A stretch of 38,091 nucleotides of DNA from Fragilariopsis cylindrus CCMP1102 (taxonomy: Eukaryota; Bacillariophyta; Bacillariophyceae; Bacillariales; Bacillariaceae), in NCBI GenBank assembly GCA_900095095.1, contig FMBT01000242.1, positions 1 to 38,091 on the forward strand. The letters are read 5' to 3'. The notes beneath the pieces are model-generated. The model worked only from the letters and a program-made list of their open reading frames with translations, made no database searches and had not been told where the DNA came from. Position 1 is the first letter of the stretch, and each line of letters opens with the position of its first letter. This document shows, piece by piece, positions 9,606-20,030 of the stretch. The position numbers were made by a program, and so were the translations under genes.

Positions 9606-9754
9606 GGTTTTTGATTATTATACATGTATAGAGAGATGATACTTCTGTAGTCTGTAGAGGCAGAGAGATACTTTTTATTATTTATATACTATTGAGCAGG
9701 AATAAAAACTTATGTCTCTACATGAACATCTACCGCTCTGCATGCGGTGTGAGC

Positions 9755-17321: not shown

Positions 17322-20030
17322 ATGGCTGACGACGAGTACAAGCGGTACATTATCCTACCAACTGGATGTAAGGTAAATGTTGATGAACATCGGTCTTTGA
17401 TCGAGCTTCCCTCTGTTGTTCACTTTGATGATGGTAGTAAAAGAAATGACAACAATCGAAGTATTGTCTCTTGGAATGCGCTTTCATCTGCAATTTGGAA
17501 TGGTGGACCTCGTTCTTTCTGTTGCAGTAGCAATCATACCATCCCTGCTTCTGATGAGCAGAATATCGACAATTATGGTAGCGATAAGCTGCAAAATCAA
17601 AAAAATCAAAAGGTATGCGTTCTTAATTACAAAATGCCATCAACGTATGATGGTTTAAACCCTGAACCAAAATGCTTTCTCCGAACTGCGATCGGTAAAG
17701 AACAACTATGTAATAATGGTAGTAGTAGCAACAATAACGATGATAACCACGACGATAATGATACTCATGTATCTTCTTCTCCGCCTCCCTCCGCCTCCAC
17801 CTCCTCCTTATACTGTGACGAAGAAAAAACTGTTGGTCTGATGACGGCAGCATCAATGCAATCTCTACGGACAGCAAGTCGATCGGCCGGTGGTGTTATT
17901 GTGGACGTTATCGTACGGCAGGTATATCGAACGCAAGATCTGCGGGGGCTGATGCCGATTGCTTTTATATGTTCCCTCCCACTACCATCACACGATCTCA
18001 AAATGATAAAGGTTGTGATGATGATGATGATGATGATGTGGTGGTGCAGGTGAAGGTGAAAGTAGTGGCAAAGAAGGTGATAAGTCTCAAGATAATCTTC
18101 GACGTCGTCGTGGTCAACAAAACAAAACAGAAACAGCACGAGGAACCAAAAAATCCACCATATACACCAGGCACTATTAATACCGTCGTTATTATTAATG
18201 CACCATTATCTGCGGGGGCTATGGTAGAAGCCTATGCAATTGTGATTGAGGCGAAATGTGCAGCTTGTGCCGATCTACGAGTACAATGTGCTAAATCATT
18301 GCAATCGTTGTACGGGAGTAACTTAGCTCAGGGAACTGGTACGGATTGTGCTGTTTTATTTACTCCTGGTAGTAAGATGGAGACTACTACAACAAAGAAT
18401 GATGATGATGATAATGTTAATGATGTCGTTATTGAATTTGCGGGAAAGCATATCCTCCTTGCAGAGATGATAGGACAGGCAGTTCGTGAAGCGACTCATG
18501 AGGCGATCCTAGCAAATATATATCACATCCACGGTGGATCACTTATTCGGTATAATATATATCAATGGTATCGATCATTTATCGGTATCCTACAAGGTGC
18601 TAGACCGTGTGTTCCACCCCTTCCAATGATGCCAGTACCCCGAGCACCCATATCGGTAATACTTTTTGGATGGATATGTGTACTCGCTTCGTATTGTATC
18701 ACACCATTTATTGGTCAATCGGCAACAATATTGATAGCTGCAACTATCTGGGACCGGTAAGTAATACATCGTAAACAACTATCAATACTCTTCCTACGAG
18801 AGAGATGTTCTCGATTTTCTTTCCTTCTCGAGGAATTAGAATATATCGTAGTTCGACTCACATTTTTTTTCTCAAAACTACTTGTGCAAATTAATCAACT
18901 TGTTGACTGATTGAATGAACCACAGCTGCCTTCCGGAGCCACCCCTTATTGTACATCCTGTTTGTCTAGCCGGATCGACGATCAGTGTCATAACCAAAAA
19001 ATGGATACCCGAGCGAGTGTATCAAAGCCCTATCCTAGGGTTTAGTTCGGGAGTATTGTTTCTCGTGGGGATGCTCTCGCTATTTCTAAGTGGAGCGTGG
19101 TTATTCCTCTACATTATCCAATTTACCACCGATGGTGTCGGAAACATTTCTTGCAGTGCATCATCTTCATTCTGTGACAAATACACTCTCCAAAATATCA
19201 CGGCCTTCGCTTCCTGGATCCTAAAGGTGGTTCTTTTCAAAACGACATTTTCTCTCCAACTCTTGTGTACAATTGCACTTCAAATGGCCCGATTCTTAGA
19301 GCGCTCTCAACTCCAAGAAGCTCGAAGTCAGCTGTCGTGGTTATGCAGTCGTGATCCAACACATCTAAATTCGGAGGAACTAGCAGGTGGGACGCTTGAG
19401 AGTTTAACGGTAAGCAGGACTACAAGATAGACGATTTTTGGAAACGTCCCTTGTTTATGAGAATCAATCGCACACGGCTATGACTTGAAAATTAAATTAA
19501 AAAAATCTCACACACGATCTGTCCTTTTTGTTTTGACAACAGGAAAATCTTTCCGACGGTACAGTCGCCCCCTGGTTCTGGTATATCCTCTTTGGGCCTC
19601 TTGGTGCTCTGGGATACCGCATAGCGAACACACTAGACTCTCGTGTGGGCTATCATGGAAAGTTTGAATGGTTTGGGAAAGCGTCCGCTAGATTCGACGA
19701 TCTGATCAATCTTATCCCTGCAAGACTAACGGCTGTGTCACTTTGTATTGCTGCAGCATTTGTACCCGATTGCAATGCAGGGAGAGGTTTGAAAACAGCC
19801 TGGGAAGACTGCGGTCAATGCGATTCACCAATGCTGGTTGGCCGATGGGAGCTATGGCGGGAGTATTAGGGGTCAGATTGGAGAAGAGAGGACAATATTG
19901 CTTAGGAAGGAATCTGAATGGCGTCCGAGGTCCAAGTCCAAGAGATATACGAAACGGTCACCGTGTTGCGCAGCTAGCCGGAGGAATAGTATTTGTGGTT
20001 GCTGTCATTGCTTGTATTATAAAGGGATAG
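17322..20030 (+). CDS. CbiZ-CbiB fusion: adenosylcobinamide amidohydrolase + adenosylcobinamide-phosphate synthase
   Basis: Three exons, 17322-18756, 18926-19409 and 19543-20030, with introns of 169 and 133 bp. The first half is CbiZ: VGLMTAASMQSLR, GGVIVDVIV then TAGISNARSAGADADCF, VVIINAPLSAGAMVEAYAI, EAKCAACADL, QGTGTDCAVLF and EFAGKHILLAEMIGQAVREA. The second half is CbiB: PEPPLIVHPVCLAG, SRDPTHLNSEELAGGTLESL, ENLSDGTVAPWFWYILFGP, YRIANTLDSRVGYHGKF, ASARFDDLINLIPARLTA and NAGWPMGAMAGVLGVRLEKR, with several membrane helices. CbiZ cleaves the linker of cobinamide or pseudocobamides to cobyric acid; CbiB attaches an aminopropanol(-phosphate) linker to cobyric acid. The fusion therefore looks like a cobamide remodelling enzyme. 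Single bases are missing near 17914 and 19830; with them the frame closes at about 802 residues. An Asp-rich linker near 18020-18140 may hide further indels. No clear targeting peptide is seen. Confidence 0.88.

Follow-up and report, generated by a model that had tools for sequence, protein, structure and literature searches.

A CbiZ-CbiB fusion gene in the diatom Fragilariopsis cylindrus, encoding a candidate cobamide-remodelling enzyme

Introduction

The roles of archaeal and bacterial CbiZ are set out in the accessible part of PMC3541065, and the enzyme responsible for cobamide remodelling in algae was, according to the accessible part of a 2020 paper, still undiscovered (PMC7733943). According to the same text, neither the transcriptome of Pavlova lutheri nor the genome of C. 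reinhardtii contains a CbiZ or CbiR homologue; as P. lutheri remodels without a CbiZ homologue in its transcriptome, either it takes another route or the gene was missed. The available portion of a 2016 paper gives cbiZ and cbiB as absent from the algal genomes analysed there, and describes Thalassiosira pseudonana as apparently without remodelling and without CobT and CobS (PMC4850488), so that the fusion reported here is not present in every diatom.

Transfers of CobU and bluB into diatoms have been published, CobU being found in Pavlovales as well (PMC12803021, accessible part). A CbiZ-CbiB fusion is not mentioned in the accessible parts of PMC11439496, PMC7287063, PMC10974524, PMC9033121, PMC9544697 and PMC8123684. 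No published account of it was found in the literature searched, which consisted mostly of titles and the first lines of abstracts, with the main diatom gene-transfer paper outside this scope; within these bounds, the remark of a first-pass annotation of the locus, to which no described eukaryotic fusion of this type was known, holds. Acquisition of the single genes by diatoms is known or likely known, and no description of the fusion or of its use in remodelling seems to exist in the literature searched. Vancaester 2020 is said to report that diatoms acquired five late cobalamin genes, all of them present in Fragilariopsis cylindrus, and this set may well include the CbiB part.

Gene structure and allelic copies

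The window, i.e. the whole stretch of DNA that was analysed, is contig C126 (38,091 bases) of a 67.9 Mb genome in 818 contigs. The fusion gene contained in it has three exons and two introns, both of the latter in the CbiB half (Table 1). Exon mapping and Pfam matches agreed with the first-pass annotation in coordinates, strand and the order of CbiZ before CbiB, and also in the spliceosomal introns, at least one of which it had placed in CbiB; both introns found there are of the GT..AG type. An intron between the domains, which it had likewise assumed, is absent: exon 1 ends at residue 484 and the CbiB Pfam match starts at residue 476 (numbering of the copy on contig C288), so that CbiZ and the first ~8 codons of the CbiB match are all located in exon 1 and the domain junction does not coincide with an intron. 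A contig chimeric at such an intron had been considered; the arrangement is common to three contigs of the genome.

Table 1. Features of the fusion locus in window coordinates
Feature	Position	Strand	Remark
CbiZ-CbiB fusion gene, start to stop codon	17322..20030	+	window copy frame-broken; intact copy is C288:49116-51842
Exon 1, all of the CbiZ domain, linker and start of the CbiB Pfam match	17322..18756	+	
CbiZ half, with conserved N-terminal segment, low-complexity insert and core	17322..18496	+	PF01955 match 17915-18496 (genome profile search) plus conserved residues upstream
Frame break preceding TAGISNA	17914..17915	+	one base short compared with C288 and C451
Several small indels that shift the low-complexity insert out of frame in the window contig	17978..18123	+	
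CbiB half	18731..20030	+	start set by Pfam residue 476 of the C288 protein
Intron 1, within the CbiB part	18757..18925	+	169 bases, GT..AG; after residue 483 of the C288 protein, phase 2
Exon 2, CbiB	18926..19409	+	
Intron 2	19410..19542	+	133 bases, GT..AG
Exon 3, end of CbiB	19543..20030	+	motifs ENLSDG, NTLDS, SPNAGWPM
Frame break preceding NAGWPM	19827..19828	+	one base short compared with C288 and C451

Two sister contigs carry the same locus: C288 aligns along the whole window in pieces of 97.9–98.8% identity, and C451 over ~25 kb with 96.5% identity. After splicing, the C288 copy yields an uninterrupted protein of 807 residues; the C451 copy is also frame-broken, at places other than those of the window. 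In the window, the motif TAGISNARSAGAD is in a different frame from the preceding CbiZ residues (one base short near 17914) and AGWPMGAMAGVLG in a different frame from the preceding CbiB residues (one base short near 19827), the extra base being present at both sites in C288 and in C451. The motifs on which the first identification relied are thus real in the window but spread over different frames, and the single polypeptide was recovered from C288, the window copy not being one open frame. Since the window gene resembles C451 up to ~18.1 kb and C288 from ~18.3 kb on, it looks like a mosaic, and the window contig is a noisy haplotig. Its sequence repeats that of C288 and most of that of C451, from which it differs by numerous small indels, and gene calls in it need comparison with C288.

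The coding parts of C288 and C451 differ by 17 synonymous and 20 non-synonymous substitutions, corresponding to a dN/dS of ~0.36 (a rough value, gapped codons excluded and the low-complexity insert included). Neighbouring genes in the window (1214-37266) were assigned to thioredoxin-glutaredoxin, MFS, chlorophyll a-b binding protein, xanthine/uracil permease, CBS/EF-hand, ATP synthase c-type, ABC1 kinase and NAT10, and no obvious B12 gene was found among them.

Domain assignment and predicted fold

In the intact C288 protein, PF01955 (CbiZ) matched residues 160-397 (E 4.3e-37, 128.4 bits, cut-off 27) and PF03186 (CobD_CbiB) residues 476-769 (E 3.4e-71, 240.3 bits, cut-off 34.4), which places both families named by the first-pass annotation far above their thresholds; the frame-broken reading frames of the window reached 80.6 bits for CbiZ and 106.7 bits for CbiB against the same Pfam cut-offs. 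The CbiB model TIGR00380 was passed narrowly (171, cut-off 165.9). The narrower CbiB model NF002281 (PRK01209.2-5) was missed with 225.3 against 273, which counts only against that sub-model, as several prokaryotic-looking CbiB rows are also below its cut-off. The CbiS model NF038002 was missed with 51.9 against 250, the second domain being CbiB. No PDB chain matched the C288 protein by sequence at E values up to 1.

Comparison with 31 prokaryotic and 21 algal or environmental CbiZ rows showed that the signature residues TAAS, GxxN, GTIN, GTGTD and GKH are kept in the C288 protein, as are most positions conserved in at least 85% of the 31 prokaryotic rows; some positions (A212, Q342 and C328 of C288) differ between these two groups of rows. 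A Skeletonema homologue gave a confident predicted two-domain model (pLDDT 90.9, pTM 0.82), the CbiZ part of which resembles amide-hydrolysing enzymes. In a fold search that took in the CbiZ part only (P0028 model, residues 1-280), the prediction matched the fold of DmpA, BapA, NylC and ornithine acetyltransferase over most of the domain, and this fold, if shared, would give the CbiZ family a structural home.

Occurrence in algae and origin

A homologue search with residues 160-807 of the C288 protein as query returned 96 proteins, 91 of them listed with both Pfam families, four with CbiZ alone and one with CbiB alone, and a profile built from 12 fusion proteins returned 105 matches; as each search scored only ~7,990 candidates, absence from these lists shows nothing. 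Twelve homologues with both domains carry a taxon name: the cryptophyte Guillardia theta and eleven diatoms, namely Thalassiosira sp. AJA248-18, T. profunda, Skeletonema potamos, S. menzelii, S. marinoi, Odontella aurita, Pseudo-nitzschia australis, a Psemu1 model (a prefix that we take to denote P. multiseries), Seminavis robusta, Nitzschia inconspicua and Bacillariaceae sp. The same fusion, which was to be sought in other algae and in transcriptomes, was thus found in twelve named algae, with MMETSP transcriptome sources behind the Odontella and Guillardia rows; both of these carry the two domains together, and transcripts of two separate genes did not come up. The P. australis and Psemu1 models end by running on into sequence that seems to correspond to the second intron of the window gene. 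Among the 105 profile matches, a CbiB-only model from Pavlovales sp. CCMP2436 (P0101) matches, with its first residues, the linker that precedes CbiB in the fusions.

A prokaryotic-looking protein of 596 aa with CbiZ and CbiB in the same order (P0105) was rejected as a true fusion; because its CbiZ profile match ends at 165 of 191 and its tail looks frame-shifted, it was taken as probably two adjacent genes run together. Scanning of GTDB genomes with short peptide patterns, which is not exhaustive, yielded 32 prokaryotic CbiZ loci of at most 42% identity, mainly from Gammaproteobacteria and Desulfobacterales, and no CbiZ-CbiB fusion was found among these 32 loci. Of the same loci, only L056 matched a CbiB profile, its own CbiB being among the profile rows. 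A viral carrier was rejected, as none of 110 pattern matches in viral contigs was confirmed as a relative.

In a CbiZ tree of all 54 rows, the bacterial rows L056 and L068 are placed on long branches amid the algal ones. Omission of five long or odd rows (L068, L056, P0105, L050 and L064) gave a 49-row tree in which one branch, with support 100/99, separates 28 bacterial rows from 21 rows of the fusion type, algal or environmental (11 named, nine other and one from this genome). In the CbiB tree, Guillardia and Pavlovales are among fifteen rows that form one group with support 96/97, set apart from seven presumed prokaryotic rows, whose ‘bact’ and ‘arch’ labels are guesses. Both topologies would fit a single origin of the fusion, which may also have spread between algae. 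Its status as a resident nuclear gene, put forward at the outset, is supported by the two spliceosomal introns, its presence on three contigs and the homologues in named algae.

Partner genes in the same genome

Profile searches of the genome, with Pfam cut-offs passed, located CobS on C679 and C127, and CobT and CobU on C679; CbiB was found in the three fusion copies and nowhere else. The homologues needed to finish the loop, for which a search had been proposed, are present as CobU, CobS and CobT, whereas no CobC exceeded its curated cut-off in an exon-wise genome search (other phosphatases may serve). The CobD decarboxylase (TIGR01140) likewise gave no match above cut-off in this type of search, in which split genes can be missed; the best candidate, on C89 (140.9 of 290.55 bits), was rejected, its sequence looking like histidinol-phosphate aminotransferase. 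A PduO-type adenosyltransferase is encoded on C91, MetH on C128 and C608, and MetE on C548 and C751, the presence of MetE meaning that B12 need not be essential. The match to the MetH activation domain holds one TAG in both copies (C128:14250-15062, C608:147558-148370), perhaps a short intron.

BluB was found on C91 with 188.5 bits (cut-off 150), and the only PDB match of this piece at E values up to 1e-5 was BluB 2isj. The catalytic residues of BluB, presumably Asp32 and Ser167, have the same letters in the C91 piece at the corresponding 2isj sites (with a three-residue offset in that chain). The BluB-type DMB synthase (C91:1033109-1033720, L082) lies within a long low-complexity frame, and by eye a reverse-transcriptase-like open frame adjoins it.

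On C679, CobU, a gene for a BT1-/MFS-like transporter (with its BT1 match below threshold) and a CobS-CobT gene occupy ~7 kb (600900-607460), a eukaryotic cluster of lower-ligand genes. Against the stricter NCBIfam equivalog cut-offs, CobT reached 300.9 of 319.3 bits, far above the Pfam threshold, and the two CobU exons, scored apart, 102.2 and 39.6 of 161. The CobU gene runs on into a PterinBD-DUF4346 domain (E 1.5e-16, L034:4454-5098). CobS and CobT look like a single gene, in which the frame changes between the CobS pieces in this assembly (L034 ~9663-9678); the C127 copy reads through the same end as C679, which may reflect either an assembly error common to both or a real feature. In P0111, which is 98% identical over the aligned part, CobS and CobT are continuous within 787 residues, and both were listed in 86 of the best 120 of 1,427 matches. 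Among the matches listed, the closest CobS-CobT row with a taxon name is from Bacillariaceae sp. (91%), and Seminavis robusta and Nitzschia inconspicua are common to the fusion and CobS-CobT lists. Judged by gene content, the genome would hold nearly everything needed for lower-ligand replacement.

Proposed function

The locus is probably a resident gene of the diatom nucleus whose product remodels cobamides with two enzyme activities. What the sequences show directly is a single gene that carries the two domains, the retention of this one-protein arrangement in other algae, and a set of partner genes in this genome; activities, substrate, hand-over and direction are read from the two families. 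On this basis, the CbiZ domain would hydrolyse the amide bond between aminopropanol linker and corrin ring, converting pseudocobalamin (or cobinamide) to cobyric acid, and the C-terminal CbiB domain in the membrane would add a new aminopropanol phosphate to give cobinamide phosphate. CobU could then form GDP-cobinamide, BluB would produce DMB from flavin, and the CobS-CobT protein would activate DMB and join it, providing cobalamin for MetH. Chances are about even that diatoms with the fusion, perhaps along with some cryptophytes and haptophytes, convert cyanobacterial pseudocobalamin to cobalamin unaided in this manner, with CbiZ-CbiB cutting and rebuilding, BluB supplying DMB and CobS-CobT closing the loop. 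If so, these algae need some corrinoid, and neither added DMB nor bacterial cobalamin.

It is less likely, at roughly one chance in five in our estimate, that the pair serves salvage as in archaea, where CbiZ works in this way (PMC3541065, accessible part): scavenged cobinamide would be converted to cobyric acid by CbiZ and returned by CbiB, pseudocobalamin not being the main substrate. The 49-row CbiZ tree, built from rows other than characterised bacterial or archaeal CbiZ, leaves room for this reading, but the CobU-type kinase would itself take up cobinamide and make cutting and rebuilding unnecessary, and the nearest rows in the search are bacterial; it is for bacterial CbiZ that cleavage of pseudocobalamin has been reported (PMC3541065, PMC7733943, accessible parts). 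Far less probable still is a pair that clears or rearranges unusable corrinoids without finishing cobalamin, or that builds another linker, for instance with ethanolamine phosphate; the lack of a TIGR01140 match above cut-off, with a histidinol-phosphate aminotransferase-like sequence as best candidate, would suit it, but CobU, CobS, CobT and BluB would be left idle, and the exon-by-exon search may have missed a split CobD gene. Bacterial contamination, a chimeric contig or a dead gene, as the frame breaks in the window and C451 copies might suggest, is rejected for this locus in view of the intact C288 copy, breaks that differ between copies, two spliceosomal introns, neighbours including chlorophyll a-b binding protein and NAT10, the same fusion in named algae and the rough allele dN/dS of ~0.36.

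With remodelling as the preferred function, a fused candidate that is conserved in diatoms and a cryptophyte makes the question of the algal remodelling enzyme directly testable. BluB in the same genome means that the diatom could in principle exchange lower ligands with no external supply of DMB, a point relevant to B12 scarcity as a limit to phytoplankton and to the usability of cyanobacterial pseudocobalamin.

Comparison with known systems

In CbiS (NF038002), a CbiZ domain is likewise joined to a late cobamide enzyme, which is an alpha-ribazole phosphatase there and CbiB in the diatom. In Halalkalibacterium halodurans (L056), CbiB follows directly downstream of the CbiZ gene in the order seen in the fusion, but as a separate gene, and CbiZ carries an N-terminal extension of ~300 residues, which we take to be a transporter ATPase. 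Diatom CobU and bluB are also genes of bacterial origin for lower-ligand assembly; the accessible part of the paper describing them names CobU, bluB and an adenosyltransferase, with no mention of CbiZ, CbiB or a fusion (PMC12803021). Remodelling by CbiR of Akkermansia begins by hydrolysis as well, at a different bond and with a protein of a different family from CbiZ (PMC7733943, accessible part). In Rhodobacter sphaeroides, remodelling likewise pairs CbiZ with CbiB and proceeds by cutting and then rebuilding (PMC7733943, PMC4850488, accessible parts); the two are separate bacterial proteins there, whereas the diatom gene, interrupted by introns, encodes both in one predicted membrane-bound eukaryotic polypeptide.
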